From Trinickia caryophylli (lineage in GTDB: Bacteria > Pseudomonadota > Gammaproteobacteria > Burkholderiales > Burkholderiaceae): a DNA stretch of 64,000 nt. Below, piece after piece: positions 11,907 to 55,596 of this stretch. The stretch's first letter is position 1; each line of letters opens with the position of its first letter. The notes beneath the pieces were generated by a model. That model was given only the letters and a program-made list of their open reading frames with translations. It made no database searches and was not told the DNA's origin. The translations under genes were made by a program, and so were the position numbers. The stretch covers positions 4,154,001 to 4,218,000 of the forward strand of contig NZ_CP139970.1 of assembly GCF_034424545.1 (NCBI RefSeq), read 5' to 3'.

Positions 11907-13217
11907 ATGGCTCATCAGGAAACGCAGCGCCGCTATCTGACCGGCTTCGCCAACGAATGGGCAACCGAAGCACTGCCCGATGCTTTGCCGGTCGGGCGCA
12001 ACTCGCCGCAGCGCGCGCCTTACGGTCTTTACGCCGAGCAACTGTCCGGCACGGCTTTCACTGCGCCGCGTCACAGCAACCGCCGCTCGTGGCTGTACCG
12101 GATCCGTCCCGCTGCCATGCACGAGCCTTTCGCGCCGCTGCCGGGCAAGCGATGGCTGAGCCGTTTCGACGAAGTGCCGCCGACGCCGAATCAATTGCGC
12201 TGGGATCCCCAGCCGTATCCCGATGTGCCGGCCGACTTCGTCGACGGCATGATCACGATGGCCGGCAACGGTGGACCGGAGGCGGGCGCTGGAGCGGGCA
12301 TCCACATCTACGCGGCCAATCGTTCGATGACGGACCGCTTTTTCTATAACGCCGATGGCGAGCTGCTGATCGTGCCGCAGGAGGGGCGCCTTTTCATTGC
12401 CACCGAACTGGGCGCGCTCGAAGTCGAGCCTCAGGAAATTGCCGTGATACCGCGCGGCGTGCGCTTTCGCGTCGAACTGCCCGACGCGAAAGCGCGCGGC
12501 TATGTGTGCGAGAACTACGGTGCGCTTTTCAAGTTGCCGGATCTCGGCGTCATTGGTTCGAACGGGCTTGCCAACCCGCGCGACTTCGAGGCGCCGGTGG
12601 CGCGCTACGAGGACGTCGAGGGCGATTTCGAGTTGATCGCGAAATTCCAGGGCAACTTCTGGCGCGCGAAAATCGGCCATTCGCCGCTCGACGTGGTGGC
12701 CTGGCACGGCAACTACGCGCCGTACAAATACGATCTGCGCCGCTTCAATACGATCGGCTCGATCAGCTACGACCATCCGGATCCGTCGATCTTTCTCGTG
12801 CTCCAGGCGCCGAGCGATACGCCGGGCGTCGATACGATCGACTTCGTCATTTTCCCGCCGCGCTGGCTCGCGGCCGAGAACACGTTCCGCCCACCCTGGT
12901 TCCATCGCAACATCGCCAGCGAATTCATGGGCCTCGTTCATGGCGCGTACGACGCAAAGGCCGAGGGCTTCGTGCCGGGCGGCGCGAGCCTGCACAACTG
13001 CATGTCGGGCCACGGTCCCGATGCCGAGACCTTCGAGAAAGCCAGCGCGTCGGATACGACGAAGCCGCACGCGATCCGCGACACGATGGCTTTCATGTTC
13101 GAGACGCCGGCCGTGCTGCGGCCGACGCGCTTCGCGCTCGAATCGGCTCAGTTGCAGCACGAGTACTACCGGTGCTGGCAGGGCCTGGCGAAGCACTTCA
13201 ACCCGTCGAAGGCCTGA
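11907..13217 (+). CDS. hmgA: homogentisate 1,2-dioxygenase
   Basis: The protein has 436 aa, normal for the family. It opens the ring of homogentisate to 4-maleylacetoacetate using non-haem iron. The N-terminal YLTGFANEW and the C-terminal SEFMGLVHG and [10 protein letters not shown] segments with the iron His/Glu ligands are present. The ATG at 11907 has an AGGAGG box at about 11892, while the longer frame from 11781 has none. It is followed by fahA and maiA in the same direction, completing the lower phenylalanine/tyrosine pathway to fumarate and acetoacetate. Confidence 0.96.
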
Positions 13218-13285
13218 TGGCCAACGCCGCTGACATCCGGTTTGCACTCGCAAAGGCAAATCGCCTCACGTGAAGGAACAGATGC

Positions 13286-14602
13286 ATGTCGATGCTCAAC
13301 GAAACTCACGACCCGCAACTGCAAAGCTGGGTACCCTCGGCCAACACGACCGACAGTGACTTCCCGATTCAGAATCTGCCGTTCGCGGTGTTTCGCCGCA
13401 AGGGCACGCAGGAGGCGTTTCGTGGCGGCGTGGCGATCGGCGATCGTATCGTCGATCTCGGTGTTGCGGCAGGATGCTTCGACGGGCTCGCCGCTCAGGC
13501 AGCGAAGGCGGGCGCGGGCAGCAGCCTCAACGTACTGATGGCGCTGGGTCAGCCGGCGTGGTCGGCACTGCGTCTCGCGCTGTCGCGGGCACTGCGCGAA
13601 GGCGCGCCGCAGCGCGCCGCGCTCGTCGATACGCTCGTCGCGCAAAGCGACGCCGAATACGGTGTGCCTGCGCGCATCGGCGATTACACCGATTTCTATA
13701 CGTCGATTCACCATGCGACGAACATCGGCCGGCTCTTTCGACCCGACAATCCGCTGATGCCGAATTACAAGTGGGTGCCGATCGGCTATCACGGCCGTGC
13801 CTCGTCGATCGGCGTTTCGGGGCAGACATTCGCGCGTCCGGTCGGGCAAACCTGCCCGCCGGGTGCCGACACGCCGTCGGTGGGGCCCAGCAGGCGGCTC
13901 GATTACGAACTCGAGCTGGCCGTCTACATCGGGACAGGAAACGACTTGGGCACACCGATTCCGATCGATGTGGCGGAGTCGCACGTATTCGGCATCAGCC
14001 TGCTCAACGACTGGTCCGCGCGCGATATTCAGGCCTGGGAGTATCAGCCGCTCGGGCCGTTTCTTTCCAAGAACTTTGCGACGACGGTTTCTCCGTGGAT
14101 CGTCATGCTGGAAGCCCTTGCGCCGTACCGCGTGCCGTTTGTGCGCCCGCAAGGCGATCCGCAGCCGCTGGCGTACCTCGATTCGGCGCAGCAGCGCGAG
14201 CGGGGCGGCTTCGATATCGAACTCGAGCTCGGCATCGAGACGGCGAAGATGCGTGCCGCGGGGCAGACCGCCTCGCGTGTATCGCGCACGAACTATCGTC
14301 ATGCGTACTGGACGGTTGCGCAAATGGTCGCGCATCACACGGTGAACGGCTGCAACCTGCAGCCCGGAGACCTGTTCGGCACGGGCACGCTCTCGGGCCC
14401 GACGCTCGATCAGGCAGGCGCCCTGATCGAGACGACGAGCGGCGGCAAACATCCGTTCGCGCTTGCCAACGGCGAAACGCGCACGTTCCTGGAAGATGGC
14501 GATGCGGTCGTGATTCGCGGCTGGTGCGAGAAACCGGGCGTGGCGAGAATCGGCTTCGGCGAGTGCCGGGGTTCGATCGTACCGGCACGGGAAGCGGCAT
14601 GA
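13286..14602 (+). CDS. fahA: fumarylacetoacetase
   Basis: The protein has 438 aa. It hydrolyses fumarylacetoacetate to fumarate and acetoacetate, the last step of the route. The N-terminal FAH beta-barrel segment (SDFPIQNLPFAVF) and the C-terminal catalytic domain are seen. Metal and active-site motifs include DFYTSIHHATN, YHGRASSI, LDYELELA and LLNDWSARDIQAWEYQPLGPF. It lies 68 bases after hmgA, and its stop overlaps the maiA start (ATGA), so co-translation is likely. Confidence 0.96.
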   Translation: MSMLNETHDPQLQSWVPSANTTDSDFPIQNLPFAVFRRKGTQEAFRGGVAIGDRIVDLGVAAGCFDGLAAQAAKAGAGSSLNVLMALGQPAWSALRLALSRALREGAPQRAALVDTLVAQSDAEYGVPARIGDYTDFYTSIHHATNIGRLFRPDNPLMPNYKWVPIGYHGRASSIGVSGQTFARPVGQTCPPGADTPSVGPSRRLDYELELAVYIGTGNDLGTPIPIDVAESHVFGISLLNDWSARDIQAWEYQPLGPFLSKNFATTVSPWIVMLEALAPYRVPFVRPQGDPQPLAYLDSAQQRERGGFDIELELGIETAKMRAAGQTASRVSRTNYRHAYWTVAQMVAHHTVNGCNLQPGDLFGTGTLSGPTLDQAGALIETTSGGKHPFALANGETRTFLEDGDAVVIRGWCEKPGVARIGFGECRGSIVPAREAA

Positions 14603-15243
14603 AGCTTTACAGCTATTTCCGCAGTTCGGCGTCGTATCGCGTGCGCATCGCGCTCAATCTGAAAGGGCTGCCATACGACTATATGCCCGTGCATCTGCTG
14701 CGCGACGGCGGCGAGCAGCTTGCACCCGCCTACCGGGCGCTCCATTCCGACGGGCTGGTGCCGACGCTCGTTGATGGCGGCGAGCCGATCCAGCAGTCGC
14801 TCGCGATCGTCGAATATCTCGACGAGACGCATCCCGAGCCGCCGCTGCTGCCGCGGGGCCCGGCCGCGCGCGCCTATGTGCGTGCGCTCGCGCTGCAGGT
14901 GGCGTGCGAGATCCATCCGCTCGACAATCTGCGTGTGCTCAAGTACCTGACGGGCGCACTCGGCGTAAGCGAGGAGGGCAAGACGGCGTGGTACCGGCAC
15001 TGGGTGGAGACCGGCTTCGCATCGCTCGAAGAGCGGCTCGCGAACGATGTGCGCAGGGGCATGTTTTGCCATGGCGATCAACCTACGCTCGCCGATCTAT
15101 GCCTGATTCCGCAGGTGTTCAATGCACAGCGCTTTCAGATTGATATGCAGCCTTACCCGACGATCATGCGGATCCACGATGCTGCGATGACGCTTGACGC
15201 TTTCGTGCGAGCTTCGCCGGGCCGGCAGCCCGACGCGCAGTAG
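14599..15243 (+). CDS. maiA: maleylacetoacetate isomerase (zeta-class GST)
   Basis: The protein has 214 aa. It is a glutathione-dependent cis-trans isomerase that converts maleylacetoacetate to fumarylacetoacetate. The N-terminal thioredoxin-fold motif is SSASYRVRIAL: the zeta signature with Ala in place of the Cys of SSCSWRVRIAL, while the catalytic first Ser is kept. The middle holds PTLVDGG and QQSLAIVEYLDETHPEPPLLP, and the C-terminus has a normal GST helical domain. It is coupled to fahA by an ATGA overlap. Functional order in the pathway is hmgA, maiA, fahA. Confidence 0.95.
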   Translation: MKLYSYFRSSASYRVRIALNLKGLPYDYMPVHLLRDGGEQLAPAYRALHSDGLVPTLVDGGEPIQQSLAIVEYLDETHPEPPLLPRGPAARAYVRALALQVACEIHPLDNLRVLKYLTGALGVSEEGKTAWYRHWVETGFASLEERLANDVRRGMFCHGDQPTLADLCLIPQVFNAQRFQIDMQPYPTIMRIHDAAMTLDAFVRASPGRQPDAQ

Positions 15244-15512
15244 GCGCGCGGCGCGCTTCGTTCGCAGACCCTCGATGGTCCTGAGCGTTGACCGGTCGGC
15301 CTTGCGTGAGATCGCCGCGCGTGCCTGTACCGAAGGCTTCACGCAACAGTCGATGCCGGCAGTGCCAAATTGGAACGCCGGCGGCTTGCGGATGGCGAAG
15401 CCGATCCACGCGATTGGAACTCCTCTGGCGGGACAATTTATCGCTATTTTTTTCTCTGGCCCATTGATTGCGATCAAGCCGCGTCGATGATCCGCTGACC
15501 GACGCCACGAGG
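15244..15512. other. intergenic region after maiA, no gene seen
   Basis: Neither strand shows a credible reading frame here. No T-rich terminator hairpin follows maiA. The T-run near 15441-15449 lacks an adjacent strong stem. Confidence 0.5.
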
Positions 15513-15526
15513 TTGATTCAAATCAA
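15513..15526 (+). promoter_or_regulatory. perfect FNR/Anr-type box
   Basis: TTGAT-TCAA-ATCAA matches the FNR consensus TTGATNNNNATCAA at every defined base. Its centre is about 57 bases before the ATG at 15577, so a class II promoter (centre -41.5) would start transcription near 15561, just before the AGGAGG at 15563. It probably switches on the YdaT-like gene and the oxidoreductase-patatin gene in low oxygen (inference). Confidence 0.75.
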
Positions 15527-15576
15527 AGCAACCGCCGATCGATCTCGCGAAGCTGTGTGGCGAGGAGGTTGCAAGC

Positions 15577-15846
15577 ATGCAATGGGATACCACCCGCTAT
15601 CCGGTGTCGATGCGCAACATGGAACCGTGGATCCGCGATAAGGCAATCGAGATTGCCAATGCGCTGCTCCGGGAAGGTGTTGCCGAAGACAGCGCGATTC
15701 GCATCGCCATCGCACAGGCGAAGCGTTGGGCCGCGAGGTCGATACGGCGGGATAGGTGCGATGAGGCGCTCGCGCCGATGAAGCGTCCATCGCGCGTCCG
15801 AGGCGATGCCCATTCTCGAAAAGCGCCATTCGGAGCGAATTCCTGA
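15577..15846 (+). CDS. YdaT-like small protein (N-terminal module only)
   Basis: The protein has 89 aa. The first ~50 residues follow the pattern of YdaT-like small stress proteins: a WDTTRYPVSMRNM start, then RDKAIEIANALLREG and a SAIRIAIAQAKRWA helix. The DUF2188-like second half found in longer family members is absent, and the last ~35 residues are basic and low-complexity. A good AGGAGG (15563-15568) precedes the ATG. It lies directly downstream of the FNR box, and its stop overlaps the next start. Function unknown. Confidence 0.65.
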   Translation: MQWDTTRYPVSMRNMEPWIRDKAIEIANALLREGVAEDSAIRIAIAQAKRWAARSIRRDRCDEALAPMKRPSRVRGDAHSRKAPFGANS

Positions 15847-18203
15847 TGACAGGACGCGAACCCCTGTTTGCAAAATCGCCCGAATTCCCGAACGATCCGC
15901 AGGAGGTCGATTACCTGCTGATCGGCGGCGGAATTGCCGGCGCCACGGCGGCCCATACGCTTCGCAGCGAGGGCGCGCAGGGACGCATCTTGATGCTCTG
16001 TGCGGAAAACGTTGCGCCCTACAACCGACCGGCGCTGGTCAGGCGCTTTCTCGGAGCCGGACTCGAGCCCCAGGGCTTCGCATGCTATCCAGCGTCGTCC
16101 TACGCCAGCAATAACATCGAACTGCGGCTCGGTTGCAAGGTCGAGCGGATAGTGCCCGCCGACCGGCTCGTGGAGATCGAGCAAGGGCCCGCGCTCCACT
16201 ATCGAAAATTGCTGATCGCGACCGGCAGTGAGCCGAGGCGGCTCGACGTACCCAATGCCGCGCTGGCGGGGATCCACAGTCTTCATGACGTCGCGGATGC
16301 GGCTACGCTACGCCGATCGGCAAAGACGGCACGGCGCGCGGTGATCGTCGGAGCGAGTTTCGTCGGCCTCGAAGCCGCCGAGTGGCTGGTCGGTCTCGGG
16401 ATCGAGGTGACGATGCTGGAGAGCGCCAATGGGGCTTTCCCAGCCCTGCGCGCGCAACAGTTGTCTGATCTGTTCTACGAACGATGTGCTGCCCGCGGCG
16501 TGACGATTCGTCTCGAGACGAGCGTCGCTCGCTTTGACGGAGACGAACGGGTAGAGCGCGTCGTCACGACGGCGGGCGATGCGGTTGAATGCGATCTCGT
16601 CCTGATAGCCATCGGCGTGACGCCTCGCATGGGTTTGGTTCGTGACAGCGGCATCGAGACGGGAGACGGCATCGTTGTCGACGCATTCCTGCAGACGAGC
16701 GTGCCCGACGTGTTCGCGGCAGGCGACGTGGCGCGCTTCGAAGACAACGTGCTGGGTATGCAGCGCCGTATCGAGCATTGGGACAATGCGGTCAGGCAGG
16801 GGAGAATTGCCGCGAAGAACATGCTGGGCCAGCGCATGCCGTATCGCGAGGTCTCGATGTACTACGGCGACATATTCGGCGTGGGCTTCAATCTGCTCGG
16901 CGCGGACGATGACGCTTCGGAGGTTGTCGCGCGCGGCAGGTTCGGCGGCGAAAGCTACGCTCTTCTCTACGTAAAAGGCGACGCGCTGCGCGGTTGCTTC
17001 TCGGTCGCGCGTCCGGCCGAGGAAACGCACGCGGCCGAGATGCTGATCCGCTACCGGACGAGCCTCGCGCCGTATCGAGCAAGGCTTGCCGATCCCGATT
17101 TCGAGCTGGCGTCGATCCCATCGCAAACGGTATTGATTCTGCAGGGCGGCGGGGCGCTAGGTGCTTTCGAATGCGGCGTCGTGCGGGCGTTGGAGGAGCA
17201 TGACGTGGTACCAGACGTCGTCTCGGCCGTGTCGATCGGCGCATTCAACGGAGCGATCATTGCGAGCCATCCTGGCGCGGCCACGCAAGCGCTATCCGCC
17301 TTCTGGCGCGAATTGACCATTCATTTGCCGCGTATGCCGGCGCAGGTCTATACAGATGCTCTGCTCGCTTCGTATGTCCTGTGTTTCGGCGTGCCCAACT
17401 TTTGCGTGCCTCGCTGGGTGCGGATGCCGCTGTCGCCACTCGCCTACCTTGGCTGGAGCTCGAGTCTTTACGACACGGGCCCGGCCATCGAATTGATCGA
17501 GCGCTATGTCGATTTTGCGCGCCTGAAAACAAGTCCGATACGCTTGCTCGTGAGTGCCGTCGACGTGAGCAGCGGCGAGTTGAAGATATTCGACAGTTAC
17601 GTGGACGAACTGACGCCCCAGCACCTGTTGGCGAGCGGCAGCTTGCCGCCGAGCTTTCCGTGGACCTGCGTCGACGGCCACGCTTACTGGGACGGCGGCA
17701 TCGTCAGCAATTCGCCGCTCGATCTCGTGGTCGAGCGTTGTGGGTCGATGGGCCGTCACGCATACATCGTCGATCTTTTCTCGGGTCCGCGGCCATTGCC
17801 ATCAAACCTGCTTGCGGCCGTGATGCGGCGCGACGAAATCGTGTACACGGACCGGGTGCGCAATGACATGCGCGTGAAAGAGTACGCTGACGATGCGACC
17901 GCATTCGTTGCGGAGCTTGTTCGCCTGCTCGGTGAGGACGAGGCGCGCAAGCTCAGGCAGCATCCGCTGTATGTTCGTCTGATGGCCGGCGCCTCCCCGA
18001 CCCGGATCACGCGCATCGCATTGGATAACGGTAAAGTCGGGCCCGCATTCACGAAAGACTATGATTTTTCGGATGCGACGGTGCGGCGCCTCCAGGATGA
18101 GGGCTATAGGACGGCTCTGGCTGCACTTGGCGCAGGGGGGGCGAAGGCACGAGAGGCGGCTGGTGCACCGATGGCCGAGGTGTCAGCATCGGCGGGCCGG
18201 TAG
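15846..18203 (+). CDS. fusion: FAD/NAD disulfide-type oxidoreductase + patatin-like phospholipase
   Basis: The protein has 785 aa. Residues ~20-415 are a two-Rossmann flavoprotein of the ferredoxin/nitrite/AIF-reductase kind: FAD motif GGGIAG at 27-32, NAD motif GASFVG at 169-174, and a VFAAGDVARF FAD-closing motif. Residues ~428-785 are a patatin-like lipase: oxyanion loop QGGGALGAF at 433-441, nucleophile Ser463 in AVSIGAFNG, and catalytic Asp616 in YWDGGIVSNSP. The normal first Gly of GxSxG is Ala461. The tail resembles the DUF3734 extension of bacterial patatins. There is no signal peptide or membrane helix. The ATG at 15846 overlaps the end of the YdaT-like gene. The joined domains are in one continuous frame; substrate and redox partner are unknown. 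Confidence 0.85.
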   Translation: MTGREPLFAKSPEFPNDPQEVDYLLIGGGIAGATAAHTLRSEGAQGRILMLCAENVAPYNRPALVRRFLGAGLEPQGFACYPASSYASNNIELRLGCKVERIVPADRLVEIEQGPALHYRKLLIATGSEPRRLDVPNAALAGIHSLHDVADAATLRRSAKTARRAVIVGASFVGLEAAEWLVGLGIEVTMLESANGAFPALRAQQLSDLFYERCAARGVTIRLETSVARFDGDERVERVVTTAGDAVECDLVLIAIGVTPRMGLVRDSGIETGDGIVVDAFLQTSVPDVFAAGDVARFEDNVLGMQRRIEHWDNAVRQGRIAAKNMLGQRMPYREVSMYYGDIFGVGFNLLGADDDASEVVARGRFGGESYALLYVKGDALRGCFSVARPAEETHAAEMLIRYRTSLAPYRARLADPDFELASIPSQTVLILQGGGALGAFECGVVRALEEHDVVPDVVSAVSIGAFNGAIIASHPGAATQALSAFWRELTIHLPRMPAQVYTDALLASYVLCFGVPNFCVPRWVRMPLSPLAYLGWSSSLYDTGPAIELIERYVDFARLKTSPIRLLVSAVDVSSGELKIFDSYVDELTPQHLLASGSLPPSFPWTCVDGHAYWDGGIVSNSPLDLVVERCGSMGRHAYIVDLFSGPRPLPSNLLAAVMRRDEIVYTDRVRNDMRVKEYADDATAFVAELVRLLGEDEARKLRQHPLYVRLMAGASPTRITRIALDNGKVGPAFTKDYDFSDATVRRLQDEGYRTALAALGAGGAKAREAAGAPMAEVSASAGR

Positions 18204-18358
18204 CGACGGTTCGCTTGCGCCCGCCCGAGACGTGCCCGAGCGGTTCACTGCATGCTTGGCCGGCAGCTGGGCAAAATCGGATGCCTAGCAAGCGTTTGGC
18301 AGTGTTTAGTCGGTCGAATGGCCGGCGCCGTTGCCTTAAACGCGCGTGCACCTTACAC

Positions 18359-18394
18359 TATCCATTGACGGATATGGTACGAAATGCGTTAAAT
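18359..18394 (+). promoter_or_regulatory. promoter and dyad of the Phd/ParE-like module
   Basis: TATCC-ATTGAC-GGATA (18359-18374) is a dyad overlapping a -35-like TTGACG (18365-18370), followed 18 bases later by TTAAAT (18389-18394). A dyad over the promoter fits autoregulation by the antitoxin-toxin complex. Confidence 0.45.
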
Positions 18395-18404
18395 GGGGGC
18401 GGTG

Positions 18405-18695
18405 ATGAGCTTACGAGCGTGTGATGTGGTGCCGATTAGCGAAGCGCGTGCACGGCTAACGGAGTTGGCCGACGAAGTCGTAGGCGGTGCAGAGAAGGTT
18501 CTTACCAAAAACGGAACGTCCTTTGTTGCGCTCGTCGATGCCAAGAAGCTCGACTACTACCACGCGCTGGAGATTGAGCACGCGAACCTCGTGCTGCTCG
18601 ATGAGGCGGAAGCAGGCTTGCGCGAGTTGCTGGACGGGCAGGTGGTCGGCAACGATGAGTTGCTGCGGGCGTTGACAACGTCGACGAAGCTGTGA
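18405..18695 (+). CDS. Phd/YefM-family antitoxin
   Basis: The protein has 96 aa. The N-terminal DNA-binding fold is VVPISEARARLTELADEV, then KNGTSFVALVDAKKLDYY, as in Phd/YefM antitoxins; the C-terminal half would wrap the toxin. The ATG at 18405 is preferred over ATG 18393, which lies inside the likely -10 region; a GGGGGCGG stretch precedes it. Its stop overlaps the toxin start (GTGA). Base composition is slightly less GC-rich than the neighbouring core genes. Confidence 0.82.
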   Translation: MSLRACDVVPISEARARLTELADEVVGGAEKVLTKNGTSFVALVDAKKLDYYHALEIEHANLVLLDEAEAGLRELLDGQVVGNDELLRALTTSTKL

Positions 18696-19063
18696 CGGCC
18701 CGGGCAGTCGTCGAGGCGGCGCCCAACTTCCTTGCGACGCTCGATGAAGCGCGACGTTTCCTTGTCGAGCAGGATGTGGACACGGCCGCGGCGCACTATG
18801 CGCGGCTCCAGGCGGAGCTCGTTGAGATGGTTCAGATGCTCGGTTGGTCGCCGGGGTGCGGTCGTCATGCGCGGTTCTTGGCGGCATGCTCGGCCCAGGC
18901 GAGGTTGCGCTTGGCACGCGTGCAACGTCTTGCGGCCGAAGCCGCGTTGCCCGATCTGCGTGAATTTGTACTAGGGCAGTACGTGGTGCTCTATGCGCAC
19001 TCATCGGAGCGCGTCGCGCTGCTGGCCATCAAACACCAGCGTCAGCTTACCTATTCCGCGTGA
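18692..19063 (+). CDS. RelE/ParE-superfamily toxin
   Basis: The protein has 123 aa. The ParE/RelE fold is seen in an early helix pair (NFLATLDEARRFLVEQ) and the C-terminal strands REFVLGQYVVLYAHSSERVALLAIKHQRQ. The predicted target is gyrase (ParE) or ribosome-bound mRNA (RelE); the sequence does not settle which. The GTG start overlaps the antitoxin stop by 4 bases. It is somewhat longer than typical ParE because of a ~20-residue basic segment around residues 60-85. Confidence 0.8.
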   Translation: MTARAVVEAAPNFLATLDEARRFLVEQDVDTAAAHYARLQAELVEMVQMLGWSPGCGRHARFLAACSAQARLRLARVQRLAAEAALPDLREFVLGQYVVLYAHSSERVALLAIKHQRQLTYSA

Positions 19064-19780: not shown

Positions 19781-20785
19781 TTAAACCAGCTCCTGGAAAG
19801 TGGCAGGAGCATCCGCTGTTGCCCGATGTTTCGCCGCGAACTCTGCTGGCGAAAGATAATTCAATGCGCTGTGGGGCCGGTCCTCGTTGTAGTCCTGACG
19901 CCACGCCGCGATGACCGCTCGGGCATGTGCAAGGCTCTTGAACCAATGCTCGTTAAGGCATTCGTCGCGGAACTTGCCGTTGAACGATTCGATGTACGCA
20001 TTCTGCGTCGGCTTGCCCGGTTGAATCAATTTCAACGTAACGCCACTGGCGTAGGCCCATTGGTCAAGCGCCCGGCTCGTAAATTCCGGTCCCTGGTCCG
20101 TTCGCAGCGCTTTGGGATAGCCCCGGAAACGTGCTGCCCGGTCTAACGCTCGTGCGACGTACAAGCCGGACATGCCGTGGTCCACGACGATATCAACAGA
20201 CTCCTTGGTGAAGTCATCGACGATAGTCAGGCACTTCAGACGCCGCCCGTTCGACAGCGCATCCATCACGAAATCGATTGACCAAACCTCATTGGGACCG
20301 CCCGGCAAAGCCAACTGCTCACGTTCAATCATGACGCCGTGGCGCCGACGACGGCGTCGCACGGCCAGCCCAGCCTCACGGTAAAGGCGATGCACGCGCT
20401 TGTGGTTCGCGTGAATGCCCTCGCGCTCCACGAGTGCATGCAGCCGCCGGTAGCCGAACCGCCGGCGCTCATGCGCCAGTTCCACCAGGCGCGCCGTTAG
20501 CGCTTCGTTCTCGTGGTCCGGTTTCGACTCGTAATGCAACACGCTGCGAGACAGCCCAACAAGCCGGCAGACACGGCGCTCCGAGATGTCGACCTTCTCC
20601 CGAATCGCCGCCACTGCCTCGCGCTTGGCTTGTGGGCTCAGGGCTTTCCCTTGACGACCACCTTCAGCGCTTCCATGTCGAGCATCGCTTCGGCCAGTAG
20701 CTTCTTCAGCCGCGCGTTCTCGACTTCCAGGTCCTTCAACCGGCGCGCTTCCGGCACCTCCATGCCGCCGAACTTCGCGCGCCAC
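19781..20785 (-). CDS. IS407-type transposase OrfB (DDE integrase)
   Basis: The frame has 334 codons, of which the functional part begins where OrfA ends (LSPQAKREAVAAIREK). An HTH_21 segment (RFGYRRLHALVEREG) and the rve integrase core follow, with the DDE residues in WSIDFVMDAL, RTDQGPEF and YIESFNGKFRDE. The C-terminus has the usual NEDRPHSALNYLSPAEF. The protein is normally produced as an OrfAB fusion by frameshifting, and the catalytic residues are intact, so the element may still be mobile. Confidence 0.92.
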   Translation of the reverse strand: MAREVRRHGGAGSAPVEGPGSRERAAEEATGRSDARHGSAEGGRQGKALSPQAKREAVAAIREKVDISERRVCRLVGLSRSVLHYESKPDHENEALTARLVELAHERRRFGYRRLHALVEREGIHANHKRVHRLYREAGLAVRRRRRRHGVMIEREQLALPGGPNEVWSIDFVMDALSNGRRLKCLTIVDDFTKESVDIVVDHGMSGLYVARALDRAARFRGYPKALRTDQGPEFTSRALDQWAYASGVTLKLIQPGKPTQNAYIESFNGKFRDECLNEHWFKSLAHARAVIAAWRQDYNEDRPHSALNYLSPAEFAAKHRATADAPATFQELV

Positions 20786-20901
20786 GTGTAGAACGACGCG
20801 TCACTGAAGCCGTGCTTCCTGCACAGCTCCTTCACCGGCATGCCGGCCTCGGCTTCCTTCAGAAACCCGATGATTTGTTCTTCCGTAAAGCGCTTCTTCA
20901 T
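20638..20901 (-). CDS. IS407-type transposase OrfA
   Basis: The protein has 87 aa. An IS3-family HTH (FTEEQIIGFLKEAEAGMPVKE-like segment, ELCRKHGFSDASFYTWRAKFGG) is followed by a leucine-zipper-like helix (DLEVENARLKKLLAEAM). OrfA binds the element ends. Its 3' part overlaps the orfB frame, where a -1 ribosomal shift normally makes the OrfAB transposase. No defects seen. Confidence 0.92.
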   Translation of the reverse strand: MKKRFTEEQIIGFLKEAEAGMPVKELCRKHGFSDASFYTWRAKFGGMEVPEARRLKDLEVENARLKKLLAEAMLDMEALKVVVKGKP

Positions 20902-21264: not shown

Positions 21265-21519
21265 GTGACTACTGTAACCGCCACCGATCTCGCCCGCCGC
21301 ACGAACCAGGTGCTCGACGCCTTGGCTCGCGGGGAATCGGTCACCATCACCCGCAATAACACCGTGCTTGGCACGATCAGGCCGCCCGAGCGGGCTGTCA
21401 CACTTCGCGACGCCTTCGAGCGCATCCCAAAGATGCCGCTCGACGTTGCCGATCGGTACATGGCCGATATCCGAAATGCCGATTTCGACGACGAGGTGCG
21501 TGATCCGTGGCAGAAGTAA
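21265..21519 (+). CDS. Phd/YefM-like antitoxin of a VapC module
   Basis: The protein has 84 aa. The N-terminal Phd-type fold reads VTATDLARRTNQVLDALARGES, then VTITRNNTVLGTIRPPE; the acidic C-terminus (DADFDDEVRDPW-like) would cover the toxin. The start is GTG 21265 with GGAGG 5 bases upstream. It overlaps the toxin gene by 13 bases. It neutralises the neighbouring PIN-domain RNase and probably represses the operon through the TACGTA repeats (inference). Confidence 0.85.
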   Translation: MTTVTATDLARRTNQVLDALARGESVTITRNNTVLGTIRPPERAVTLRDAFERIPKMPLDVADRYMADIRNADFDDEVRDPWQK

Positions 21520-21929
21520 TCGTCGATACATGTGTCTGGATCGATCTCAGTAAAGGCGCTCTCGACGCCGAAGCAATTTACAACGTCGCTGGGTCCCAAT
21601 TGGTCCATGTCTCCGCGATTTCGCTTGGTGAATTGGAATTCGGCGCGCAACTTCCAAGCGACGCCCGCGAGCGGGCACAGCGCACTGCCTTTCTGCGTGC
21701 CATCGAACGGATGCCGGTGCTCGCAGTGACGCGAGAGACCGCTCGTTCATTCGGGTTGCTCGCGACCATGATGAAGTCGGCGGGTCGTAGCCCGCGCCCG
21801 CGTTATAACGATCTCTGGATCGCCGCTCAAGCTCATGAACATCACCTGTCGCTTCTCACTAGCAACCCAGATGATTTCCGCGCACTAGACGTGATCGAAA
21901 TCATCGAAGCCCCGAAGACGACTCATTGA
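21507..21929 (+). CDS. VapC-type PIN-domain ribonuclease toxin
   Basis: The protein has 140 aa and a full PIN acidic set: Asp7 (VDTCVWID), Glu42 (ISLGELEFG), Asp102 (RYNDLWIAA) and Asp122 (TSNPDDF). VapC toxins cut tRNA or rRNA with Mg2+ or Mn2+. The GTG start at 21507 lies inside the end of the antitoxin gene, so the pair is translationally coupled. The pair sits between an IS element and a tRNA gene, which fits acquisition by transfer. Confidence 0.9.
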   Translation: MAEVIVDTCVWIDLSKGALDAEAIYNVAGSQLVHVSAISLGELEFGAQLPSDARERAQRTAFLRAIERMPVLAVTRETARSFGLLATMMKSAGRSPRPRYNDLWIAAQAHEHHLSLLTSNPDDFRALDVIEIIEAPKTTH

Positions 21930-22241: not shown

Positions 22242-22328
22242 TGGTGCCCAGGAGAGGACTCGAACCTCCACGATGTTGCCACCGCTAGGACCTGAACCTA
22301 GTGCGTCTACCAATTCCGCCACCTGGGC
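22242..22328 (-). tRNA. tRNA-Leu (CAG)
   Basis: The gene is 87 bases including an encoded CCA. The acceptor stem GCCCAGG pairs with CCTGGGC. The anticodon loop TTCAGGT gives anticodon CAG for the CUG codon. A long variable arm, TTCGAGTC in the T arm and A as discriminator base are typical of leucine tRNA. Its own consensus promoter and terminator make it a single-gene unit. Confidence 0.96.
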
Positions 22329-52881: not shown

Positions 52882-54027
52882 ATGTCTCCGTCAGAACCGG
52901 TTTCCGTCCTTGCTATCGACGAAGTGCGCTGCCACGTCGAGAATCGAGTCGGTTTTATCGAACTGAATCGCCCGAAGGCGCTCAACGCGCTTTCGGTTCC
53001 GATGATTCGTGCAATGCACGCGCGGCTCGACGAATGGCGCGACGATGACGACGTCCTTGCCGTCGTGGTGTACAGCGCGCACGAACGAGCTTTTTGTGCC
53101 GGTGGTGACGTGCGGTACTTCTATGAGGCATCCCAGCGCGGCGACGTTGCGGCGCGCGAGCGTTTCTTCGTCGAGGAGTACACACTCGATCACGCCATAT
53201 TCACCTACCCGAAGCCCTATATCGCGTTGATGAGCGGGATCGTGATGGGCGGGGGTATGGGAATTTCCCTGGCTGCACATCGTACCGGCGGCTTGCGCGT
53301 GGTGACGACGTCGACGCAAATGGCCATGCCCGAGACGCGTATCGGCCTTTTCCCGGACGTCGGCTCGAGTTGGTTCCTGGCCCGCGCGCCTGGCGCGATC
53401 GGCCGCTATCTGGCGGTAACGGGCGAGACGATCGATGCGGCCGATGCGCTCTACGCGGGGCTCGCCGATATCTGCATCCGCGCCTCGGCCTTGCCCGCGT
53501 TGCTCGATGCATTGCGCAGCGAGCGTTTTGGCGCGTCCGGCGATGTCGTCGAATGCGTGAGGCGCGCGGCGCAGGGGGCGCCCTGTGTGCCGGACGACGA
53601 CGAGGCGGCGGAAACATCGCTTGCCGCCACGCGCGCCTGGATCGACCGGCATTTCGGCCAGTCGGACGTGTCGGGCATCATGGCGTCGCTCGAAACTCAG
53701 CAGGAGGAGGGGGCGCGTGACTGGGCCGAGGAGACGATCGGCGTGCTGCGCGATCGCTCGCCGCTCTCGATGGCCGTGTCGCTGGAAGTGGTCGCGCGCG
53801 GCGAGGGGACAATGGCCGACTGTTTGCGGCGCGACCTCGATCTCACGCGCTCGATGTTCGAGCATGGAGACGTGCTCGAAGGCGTGCGCGCGCGCATCAT
53901 CGACAAGGACAACCACCCGCATTGGCGCTTCGCACGCATCGAGGACGTCAGCCGCGCCGATATCGAGCGCATGTTCGTGAGCCCCTGGGCTCCCGACGCG
54001 CATCCGCTTCGCCACCTGCGGGGCTGA
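52882..54027 (+). CDS. 3-hydroxyisobutyryl-CoA hydrolase (crotonase superfamily)
   Basis: The protein has 381 aa, much longer than simple enoyl-CoA hydratases. The crotonase core (VGFIELNRPKALNAL; AFCAGGDVRYFYE oxyanion segment; SGIVMGGGMGISLAAH; MPETRIGLFPDVGSSW with the catalytic Glu/Asp) is followed by the C-terminal extension typical of HIBCH (GVRARIIDKDNHPHW). It hydrolyses 3-hydroxyisobutyryl-CoA in valine breakdown. ATG 52882 is chosen over 52843. No other valine-pathway gene is adjacent. Confidence 0.9.
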   Translation: MSPSEPVSVLAIDEVRCHVENRVGFIELNRPKALNALSVPMIRAMHARLDEWRDDDDVLAVVVYSAHERAFCAGGDVRYFYEASQRGDVAARERFFVEEYTLDHAIFTYPKPYIALMSGIVMGGGMGISLAAHRTGGLRVVTTSTQMAMPETRIGLFPDVGSSWFLARAPGAIGRYLAVTGETIDAADALYAGLADICIRASALPALLDALRSERFGASGDVVECVRRAAQGAPCVPDDDEAAETSLAATRAWIDRHFGQSDVSGIMASLETQQEEGARDWAEETIGVLRDRSPLSMAVSLEVVARGEGTMADCLRRDLDLTRSMFEHGDVLEGVRARIIDKDNHPHWRFARIEDVSRADIERMFVSPWAPDAHPLRHLRG

Positions 54028-54066
54028 TGTCCCGCCCGACCGGAGCGGGCTTGCGGGGGGGGGCGC

Positions 54067-54498
54067 TCAGGCCGCGTCGTCTTCGACCGGCGCCATGAAC
54101 GCGCGCATGAACACGAGTGCGCCCCAGCCCCAGACGGCATTCGCGGCAAAACCGACGGCAAGACGCGGCAGCATATTGCCGCTCGGCCAGATACCGCGCA
54201 GCGGATCGACGAGAAACACGCGGGCAGCCGTCAGCACGATGCCGCCGAACACGAAGGCTTGTACCCACGGTGCGGCGCGTTCGGGCGAGATACGCAGCAA
54301 CCACGCCATCAGGACGGCCCATAGGGCGCTCCAGATCGCGTTGGCGACGAACTCGGGAACCTCGAGCGGCGCGAAAGGAATCGTCGAGAAACCGCCCGTG
54401 CCGATGAGGCCGGCCGTGTGCAGCAGCGCTAACGTCGCTTCGCGGAAAAAGAGTGCCGCGAGAAAGCCTGAAACGAAGGGCAGGATGACTTTTTGCAT
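54067..54498 (-). CDS. hypothetical four-helix membrane protein
   Basis: The protein has 143 aa. Four hydrophobic segments (about 5-25, 45-67, 78-97, 110-130) with short loops and a short acidic C-terminus (PVEDDAA) suggest an inner-membrane protein. LLHTAGLIGTGGFSTIPFAPLEVPE between helices 1 and 2 (residues about 25-49) is the most distinctive stretch. The family is not recognised with confidence; a YagU-like relation is possible. It converges on the HIBCH-type gene. Confidence 0.7.
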   Translation of the reverse strand: MQKVILPFVSGFLAALFFREATLALLHTAGLIGTGGFSTIPFAPLEVPEFVANAIWSALWAVLMAWLLRISPERAAPWVQAFVFGGIVLTAARVFLVDPLRGIWPSGNMLPRLAVGFAANAVWGWGALVFMRAFMAPVEDDAA

Positions 54499-54652
54499 GG
54501 AGTGCTTTGCGCGGCCGCGTCACGGGCGATAAGGCCGGCGGCGCGGGCCTTGGGCTCGAACGTGCGACATTATAGGTGCGCGCGAAGACGTCGCGGCGTT
54601 ACCCGGCGGAAGTGCTAGGATGGATTGACGATTCCATCCAAGGGAGCCGGCC

Positions 54653-54850
54653 ATGTCCAAATCCTTGAGTCCGGAGGCAATCGAGGCGCTCCGGCGCCTG
54701 AACGAAGTGGGTATCGGCCAGCAGCCCCCGCTCGTCTCCATGGCCGTGGCGGCCGAACTGCTGGGCGCGGGGCTGGCCGGCGAGAATACCGACGGCGCGA
54801 TCGAAATCACGTGCGATGGTCGCAAGTATCTGTCCGGGGACTGCGACTAG
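54653..54850 (+). CDS. small hypothetical protein, 65 aa
   Basis: The protein has 65 aa and is soluble. The start has AAGGGAGCC 6-12 bases upstream. It contains LSPEAIEALRRLNEVGIGQQ and a C-terminal DGRKYLSGDCD with one Cys. Codon bias matches a real gene. No known domain is recognised. It lies 45 bases before another small gene in the same direction, so the two probably form a small operon. Confidence 0.65.
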   Translation: MSKSLSPEAIEALRRLNEVGIGQQPPLVSMAVAAELLGAGLAGENTDGAIEITCDGRKYLSGDCD

Positions 54851-54895
54851 CGCGGGCGCGCCCGTCACTGGCGGCATCATCGAAGGAGAGCGGCG

Positions 54896-55138
54896 ATGAA
54901 ACCGAAAGGCGTCGACATGGGTGACTACGAGGAAGCCTATCGCGGGTATGACCTCGAAATCGCCATCGAGCAGGTGATGACGGGCGTGAAGTCGCATTTC
55001 CGCGTGCTGAAGGACGGCATGGTCGTCGAGGACTGGCGGCTCGTTCACGTCGAAGAGACGTGGCCGACCGAGCGGCTGGCGGCACGCGCTGCGCTCGATG
55101 CGGCGCGTGCCGTTGTCGACGGCAAGCTCGGTGCGTGA
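54896..55138 (+). CDS. small hypothetical protein, 80 aa (DUF6566-like)
   Basis: The protein has 80 aa. A strong GAAGGAGA box lies 6-13 bases before the ATG. The sequence is acidic and helical with a two-strand middle: GDYEEAYRGYDLEI, then GVKSHFRVLKDGMVVEDWRLVHVEETW and an AARAALDAARAVVDG helix. It resembles small Burkholderia proteins of the DUF6566 kind, from memory only. It is downstream of the 65-aa gene. Function unknown. Confidence 0.65.
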   Translation: MKPKGVDMGDYEEAYRGYDLEIAIEQVMTGVKSHFRVLKDGMVVEDWRLVHVEETWPTERLAARAALDAARAVVDGKLGA

Positions 55139-55173
55139 GCGCAGCCCTGGGGCAGGGGCGCGCCGGCGCGGGC

Positions 55174-55596
55174 TTATTGCTCGTCGTCCCCCCAAGGGAT
55201 TTCGACGTCGGTGATGAACGCGACGGTGGCGAGCGGCCGTGCTTCGTGCCGGCCGACCTTGCCGTCGGCGCGCTGCCATTCGACGCGAAAGACGACCTCG
55301 GGGGTTTCCGCGAGCAGCCATACCTTGCGCAGTTCGTCGGGATCGGCGGCCTCGACGGGGCCATCGAGCGAGACGAGCAGCTGTTGCGGCCACAGGCCGT
55401 TGGCCGGGTCGTACACGCGGTCGCCGTCCGGAATCGACGTAAATGCCTCGACGCCAATCGTGGCACTGGCTTCTTCCACCATTTTCGCTAGTGCGCGCAA
55501 GACGGCGGTGGCACGTGCCGAGTTCGCCTGGCGGATTGCGAGATCGCCGCGCGTCAACGCGTGCTCGAGTCTGGGGTTTGCCTTTTGCTTGCTCAT
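55174..55596 (-). CDS. hypothetical protein, 140 aa
   Basis: The protein has 140 aa and is soluble. It starts MSKQKANPRLEHAL at 55596 (an ATG four codons upstream is possible, but the taatgcc context is weak). It holds a helical N-terminus and a beta-rich C-terminus (QLLVSLDGPVEA, VVFRVEWQRADGKVG, VAFITDVEIPWGDDEQ). No family is recognised. It converges on the 80-aa gene, with 35 bases between stops. Confidence 0.7.
   Translation of the reverse strand: MSKQKANPRLEHALTRGDLAIRQANSARATAVLRALAKMVEEASATIGVEAFTSIPDGDRVYDPANGLWPQQLLVSLDGPVEAADPDELRKVWLLAETPEVVFRVEWQRADGKVGRHEARPLATVAFITDVEIPWGDDEQ

Follow-up and report, generated by a model that had tools for sequence, protein, structure and literature searches.

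The 64-kb stretch of the 6.59-Mb genome of Trinickia caryophylli analyzed here (the window) carries a gene whose 785-amino-acid (aa) product joins a flavin-dependent reductase to a patatin-like hydrolase in one chain. Judged from sequence comparisons, this fusion is real, widely found, and apparently unstudied. We propose, with confidence about evenly balanced, that it is a low-oxygen-induced ester hydrolase of the polyhydroxybutyrate (PHB) cycle fused to a flavoprotein that depends on reduced nicotinamide adenine dinucleotide (NADH) and belongs to the ferredoxin reductase class (BphA4/putidaredoxin reductase).

A first-pass annotation of this DNA described a single uninterrupted reductase and patatin frame, and that description is accurate. 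The 785-aa frame (Table 1) has zero internal stops, neither a stop nor a frameshift separates the reductase and patatin domains, and four Pfam domains follow one another in order. The motifs lie exactly where they had been placed, with GGGIAG at residues 27–32 and GASFVG at 169–174, followed by QGGGALGAF at 433–441, Ser463 (AVSIG, 461–465), and Asp616 (YWDGG, 614–618); G27, G29, G169, G174, G434–436, S463, and D616 are invariant in all 61 aligned fusions. An assembly artefact was considered and ruled out because the window protein belongs to a cluster represented on 10 contigs, and its architecture recurs in each of the 119 other homologues listed. These homologues come from a search of ~5.8 billion proteins in which 7995 were scored and 1454 matched at E ≤ 0.001, 120 of these being listed. 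By reading of the table, PF07992, PF01734, and PF12536 occur in all 120 matches listed, so that Pyr_redox_2 and Patatin are found in one chain throughout. Identity to the window fusion is 47–67% among them, its own entry excepted, some of the listed clusters hold more than 100 member sequences, and the sources include Burkholderia, Paraburkholderia, Caballeronia, Sphingomonas, Bradyrhizobium, Xanthobacter, Actibacterium, and others. The earlier impression that the pairing is undescribed therefore fails for the architecture: one listed match of identical architecture (P0007) is named in RefSeq as a ‘bifunctional pyridine nucleotide-disulfide oxidoreductase/patatin-like phospholipase’, a name that comes with no function. 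A literature search limited to open PMC papers returned no study of the fusion. Across whole genomes the distribution is patchy: 12 of 299 family genomes and 2 of 398 phylum genomes have the fusion at E ≤ 1e-100, the window genome being in both counts. In a tree of the patatin half, 27 fusion rows fall on one side of one branch; a single origin is allowed and not shown, because support is only 64/92, a motif filter left out 11 of 38 fusions, and long branches meet there. Separately, one genome (G178; L110, L127) carries an additional partial fusion copy with in-frame stops.

The case for oxygen control begins upstream. The same annotation had reported a perfect FNR box and a YdaT-like gene before the fusion; both are present, and a second perfect box can now be added. 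Perfect boxes (TTGAT-N4-ATCAA) number nine in the whole genome, where base composition predicts 0.67 and the backward pattern occurs 0 times, and for two of nine sites to fall within 49 bp of each other ~0.0005 such pairs would be expected. Placing the second box at −41.5 would put the transcription start near 15561, 16 bp ahead of the ATG of the small gene, and the first box at −90.5, a geometry that we take to resemble that of E. coli yfiD. The stop of the small gene overlaps the start of the fusion, and therefore both very likely belong to one transcript. The small gene has no Pfam or NCBIfam match; it has 392 homologues at E ≤ 0.001, and several of the 120 listed bear the Joint Genome Institute name ‘uncharacterized protein YdaT’. 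The genome encodes two FNR-type regulators, one scoring 249 bits (cut-off 228) and one 208 (below the cut-off), and both carry the CX2CX5C cysteine cluster and an ETVSR helix that conforms to ExxSR. The first adjoins a universal-stress-type gene (by eye), just as anr2 adjoins uspA in B. cenocepacia (PMC9104464; this and the other papers given by PMC number are represented here by excerpts). An identical consensus has been proposed ahead of a cytochrome bd cluster (PMC9104464).

How far this arrangement extends was assessed over 38 fusion loci, made up of the window, 23 full-length fusions of at least 80 loci, 5 plasmids, and 9 family genomes, and excluding two further genome copies of loci already included. 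The sample is uneven and holds some close kin (the patatin halves of L035 and L114 are identical), and neighbour genes were called by codon scoring, which overlooked the small 89-aa gene of the window. Only one of the 38, the window itself, has a perfect box in the 700 bp upstream (random pieces of the same loci give 0.1); allowing one mismatch raises the count to 4, again including the window (random 700-bp pieces 4.5%, hence 1.7 expected), with three loci offering only 463–641 bp to the scan. Only 2 of 38 loci have a YdaT-like gene no more than 5 kb from the fusion, and on a Cupriavidus plasmid it directly follows the fusion; a conserved order of FNR box, ydaT-like gene, and fusion was rejected as the main reading on these counts, and the order with its box did not recur as such in other Burkholderiaceae. 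Promoter sequence is thus not tightly conserved across the fusion loci. Among 41 genomes the YdaT-like gene occurs in 4, including all 3 that have the fusion (Fisher p 3.8e-4, shared ancestry not removed), at distances of ~9 kb in G003 and 63 kb in G021.

Boxes do head the gene run of the fusion in two relatives. G003, of the same genus, has a perfect box at 303783 ahead of a run of three genes on one strand; the fusion comes last in the run and overlaps its neighbour. In G200, two relaxed boxes (TTGAY-N4-RTCAA, a pattern chosen after first results had been viewed) lie 77 bp apart between divergent genes, ahead of a run of eight genes on one strand; the run has intergenic gaps of ≤75 bp, and the fusion is its last gene. 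In G271 (53890–55465, L167), a phaZ gene and the fusion converge; a perfect box stands 234 bp ahead of phaZ and 66 bp from a relaxed one. Taken with the tandem boxes and the two regulators, the boxes heading the gene run in G003 and G200 support the FNR control put forward in the first-pass annotation and make induction of the fusion by FNR highly probable. That the boxes are chance or unused and the fusion is not oxygen-controlled is very improbable: the lack of a perfect box within 700 bp upstream at the other 37 loci and of a sigma-70-like promoter in a consensus scan of 15200–18500 would fit such an account, whereas the closely spaced pair in the window, the boxes heading the runs in G003 and G200, and one-mismatch boxes in L118 and L121, 108–110 nt ahead of the matched start, speak against it.

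Relaxed boxes are abundant in two relatives: G003 has 17 over 55.9 kb and G021 has 23 over 100 kb, and the backward control gives 0 for each. The box-rich stretch of G003 (C45:280000–335900, L148–L150), 56 kb in length, holds genes for universal stress proteins (USPs), BON and Hsp20 proteins, a second F-type ATPase, nitrate reductase, and an FNR paralogue, all by eye; gene names in the G003, G021, and G200 stretches are by-eye readings of sequence starts. The table for the low-oxygen-activated (lxa) locus of B. cenocepacia lists USPs, PhbB, a BON protein, phosphofructokinase, all among the induced proteins, and a heat-shock protein (PMC6127331), and by eye similar genes occur in the G003 island that holds the fusion and likewise in G021. 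The window fusion differs in lying outside any such island, only 3 relaxed boxes being present in the 64 kb, which is below the box density of an lxa-type island, and the fusion does not appear in the lxa example table as excerpted (PMC6127331). Counts elsewhere are 1, 4, 1, and 0 per 40 kb in G105, G112, G194, and G228, and 0, 0, 3, and 4 per 20 kb in G213, G269, G200, and G271.

The assignment to the PHB cycle is drawn from neighbouring genes. Of the 38 fusion loci, 18 have at least one PHB or ketone-body gene, identified with a protein panel, no more than 5 kb away (15 of the 31 with full flanks), and the panel calls are backed by Pfam and NCBIfam, one phasin falling just under the Pfam cut-off. 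The PhaZ calls are weak in L032 (27%) and L034 (26%), and the PhaZ of G003 is a fragment by length. Seven of 38 loci, the window not included, have BdhA within 5 kb, and it reached the curated cut-off in the five scanned. On Sphingopyxis and Tardibacter plasmids, a phasin gene on the opposite strand is followed by genes for acetoacetate decarboxylase, the fusion, and a 3-hydroxybutyrate dehydrogenase, the last overlapping the stop of the fusion. On a Cupriavidus plasmid the fusion and phaZ diverge, and on a Xanthobacter plasmid the fusion is flanked by transporter genes, not PHB genes. The 12 family genomes with the fusion hold 44 copies of the depolymerase domain PF06850; three of these genomes, two of them of one genus, have a copy within 5 kb of the fusion, versus 0.075 expected. 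The two free patatins of the window genome nearest to the fusion, L169 and L168 (34% and 37% identity to its C-terminal half), have the Patatin domain and ketone-body neighbours, BdhA (over the cut-off) beside L169 and acetoacetate decarboxylase beside L168, which shares DUF3734 with the fusion; unlike the fusion, they have no reductase half and none of the nine perfect FNR boxes near them. In 22 free-patatin loci, namely these two and 20 others picked from the match list, BdhA or acetoacetate decarboxylase lies within 500 bp in 9 and in none of the other 13. As side observations, the fusion adjoins ABC/HlyD transporter genes in L112 (Xanthobacter) and L042 (Siccirubricoccus), and slightly beyond 5 kb there is a phasin gene in L112 (by Pfam) and a related small gene in L042.

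Known patatin-type enzymes offer a precedent. PhaZh1 of the archaeon Haloferax mediterranei is an intracellular patatin-type polyhydroxyalkanoate (PHA) depolymerase whose gene adjoins bdhA, as many relatives of the fusion do; its description there names a patatin-like domain and no reductase half, it is likened to the fusion by description only, and deleting it produced no significant change in vivo (PMC11205408). Slr0060 of Synechocystis also has a patatin domain and belongs to a PHB-related operon (PMC7203880). In Herbaspirillum, direct Fnr targets include phaC1, dksA-phaC2, and a major phasin (PMC5934665), and in B. thailandensis PHA granules were absent under oxygen limitation, for which the authors blame nutrient supply (PMC3966863). 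The 18 loci and the free patatins beside acetoacetate decarboxylase and BdhA lend support to the polyhydroxyalkanoate guess made in the first-pass annotation, and hydrolysis of PHB or 3-hydroxybutyrate oligomers by the patatin half is somewhat favoured.

The patatin half itself has the oxyanion GGGxxG, the Ser-Asp dyad, and the fold of patatin-like hydrolases; it was modelled separately (predicted local distance difference test score 75.6) because the full-length fold search filled with reductases. Its closest solved patatin is PlpD, both by sequence (E 5.4e-9) and by fold, other phospholipases ranking below, and Pfam labels DUF3734 ‘Patatin phospholipase’. These affinities, together with a phospholipase A gene annotated near the L113 fusion, would suit a membrane-lipid enzyme in which the patatin half is a (lyso)phospholipase for the remodelling or repair of membrane lipid when oxygen is low, and the reductase handles oxidized lipid or supplies electrons. 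We regard this as unlikely, given the PHB and ketone-body neighbours of 18 of 38 fusion and 9 of 22 free-patatin loci; lipid-synthesis genes were not seen among the neighbour clusters printed, which were read by eye with no scan. Effectors of cyclic-oligonucleotide-based anti-phage signalling systems (CBASS) include the patatin phospholipases CapV and CapE, whose structures rank high for the patatin fold, and two toxin–antitoxin-like pairs lie downstream in the window. A CBASS-like anti-phage effector is nevertheless extremely improbable: PADLOC phospholipase effectors match weakly (best E 2.4e-5) and over fewer than 100 residues, in a search that for a partner cyclase covered six proteins, and the FNR boxes, metabolic neighbours, and widely shared architecture point elsewhere.

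Fold searches place ferredoxin reductases nearest to the N-terminal half, which has both dinucleotide-binding motifs and the whole-domain fold of the ferredoxin-NAD(+) reductase class. It shares the fold and the motifs for flavin adenine dinucleotide (FAD) and NAD with TodA (3ef6), ArR (3lxd), putidaredoxin reductase, and BphA4, all of which are free-standing whereas the window reductase is fused to a patatin, and more distantly with apoptosis-inducing factor (AIF). The first-pass annotation had called this half an FAD/NAD disulfide-type reductase; the motifs are at the residues given, and ‘disulfide-type’ is valid as a superfamily name only, because a sequence scan of the reductase half shows it to lack the redox-active CX4C pair, an absence that fits the ferredoxin-NAD(+) reductase class. 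E192, at the position after beta-2 of the NAD domain where an acidic residue would go with a preference for NADH, is kept in at least 90% of fusion alignment A2, and the aligned residue is Glu in 3lxd and 3fg2 and Asp in 1q1r. Scores fell short of the NCBIfam cut-offs for HcaD (245.6 of 450 bits) and AndAa (224.1 of 650 bits). Four of 38 loci have a flavodoxin-like gene no more than 5 kb from the fusion, directly before it in L023, L117, and L126, and L036 has a flavin mononucleotide (FMN) reductase gene 3′ of the fusion. The end of the flavodoxin-like gene overlaps the start of the fusion in L117 (8135–8650) and L023 (6471–6971), making its product a candidate redox partner. Such neighbours, and the ferredoxin reductases as best structural matches, would accord with an enzyme that works foremost in electron transfer, as an NADH:flavodoxin or NADH:ferredoxin reductase for low-oxygen metabolism, with the patatin half as a tether to granule or membrane. 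This is decidedly unlikely: a mere tether would not need Ser463 and Asp616, invariant in every aligned fusion, and the flavodoxin-like gene is infrequent near the fusion and not found in the window.

Under the PHB-cycle proposal, falling oxygen would lead FNR to bind both boxes, and the ydaT-like gene and the fusion would be transcribed. The patatin half would then cleave PHB or 3-hydroxybutyrate oligomers by analogy with PhaZh1, and BdhA would oxidize the released 3-hydroxybutyrate to acetoacetate, yielding NADH. The FAD half would bind NADH and either pass electrons to a small carrier, such as the flavodoxin-like protein encoded before the fusion in some relatives, or, once its flavin is reduced, throttle the hydrolase so that the store is burnt no faster than NADH is re-oxidized. 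A working link of some kind between NADH at the flavin and hydrolysis is a tentative possibility. More doubtful is its specific form, a redox-gated storage-polymer hydrolase in which the flavin domain would sense NADH and accordingly switch the patatin depolymerase attached to it. We know of no ester hydrolase gated by an AIF/ferredoxin-reductase-type sensor, and to our knowledge the timing of stored-PHB use in bacteria is poorly explained at the enzyme level. If such gating exists, one FNR-induced polypeptide would match PHB mobilization to the capacity for NADH re-oxidation in low oxygen. Oxygen and NADH would then act directly on storage use at the molecular level, through a protein that has FNR boxes ahead of its gene in at least one lineage, and this would matter for anoxic survival and bioplastic yield.

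Several observations weigh against the PHB-cycle proposal. The strict GXSXG motif reads AXSXG in the window protein, its first Gly being Ala, and phospholipids are frequent substrates of patatins, a point to which the phospholipase A gene of L113 adds. In 20 of the 38 loci, the window among them, the panel detected no PHB or ketone-body gene within 5 kb, and six of the eight other relatives scanned lack a dense set of FNR-type boxes near the fusion. No ferredoxin or other redox-partner gene was seen beside the window fusion in a gene list read by eye, with no ferredoxin search. The Herbaspirillum Fnr targets named in the excerpt serve PHB synthesis and granule coating, not breakdown (PMC5934665).

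Table 1. Features of the fusion locus and its surroundings, in window positions
Feature	Position	Strand	Basis or remark
hmgA-fahA-maiA (homogentisate dioxygenase, fumarylacetoacetase, glutathione S-transferase/maiA-type genes)	11907–15243	+	Directly upstream of unit
First perfect FNR box, TTGATTGCGATCAA	15464–15477		Whole-genome and upstream pattern scans; overlooked by first-pass annotation
Second perfect FNR box, TTGATTCAAATCAA	15513–15526		Pattern scans; centre 49 bp from first box
Putative Shine–Dalgarno-like GAGGAGG	15562–15568	+	Ahead of small gene; read from sequence
YdaT-like small gene, 89 aa	15577–15846	+	TGA 15844–15846 overlaps fusion ATG
Fusion gene, 785 aa	15846–18203	+	Open reading frame list, Pfam, homologue search
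Pyr_redox_2, FAD/NAD(P) domain, residues 22–319	15909–16802	+	Pfam E 1.3e-61; fold matches
Reductase_C, residues 342–423	16869–17114	+	Pfam E 4e-6, 27.7 bits (cut-off 25)
Patatin, residues 430–628, Ser463/Asp616 dyad	17133–17729	+	Pfam E 1.4e-28; fold
DUF3734, residues 665–767	17838–18146	+	Pfam E 1.1e-10
Toxin–antitoxin-like pair, Phd/YefM-like (just under cut-off) and ParE-like	18426–19063		Downstream of fusion
IS3-type transposase genes	19781–20901		By eye; between fusion and tRNA-Leu
Toxin–antitoxin-like pair, Phd/YefM-like (below cut-off) and PIN domain	21265–21929		Downstream of fusion
tRNA-Leu(CAG)	22242–22328		Ahead of rnr-like gene (rnr by eye)

The surroundings of the unit suggest a mobile history. 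The homogentisate pathway encoded just upstream yields acetoacetate, which is also the product of BdhA. An Rfam scan returned a tRNA and nothing else. The tRNA-Leu and rnr genes occur together in all 10 genus mates examined, and the gene content to their left, as called, differs among the mates. Neither the small gene nor the fusion has a match left of tRNA-Leu in the DNA examined of these 10 mates, which amounts to ~7.5 kb in seven, 5.1 and 3.8 kb in two, and 0.25 kb in G003. The tRNA-Leu(CAG) gene ahead of the rnr-like gene looks like a variable insertion site, and the ydaT-like gene and fusion are probably a module gained at, or moved to, such a site. One genus mate (G006) has a partial maiA match.

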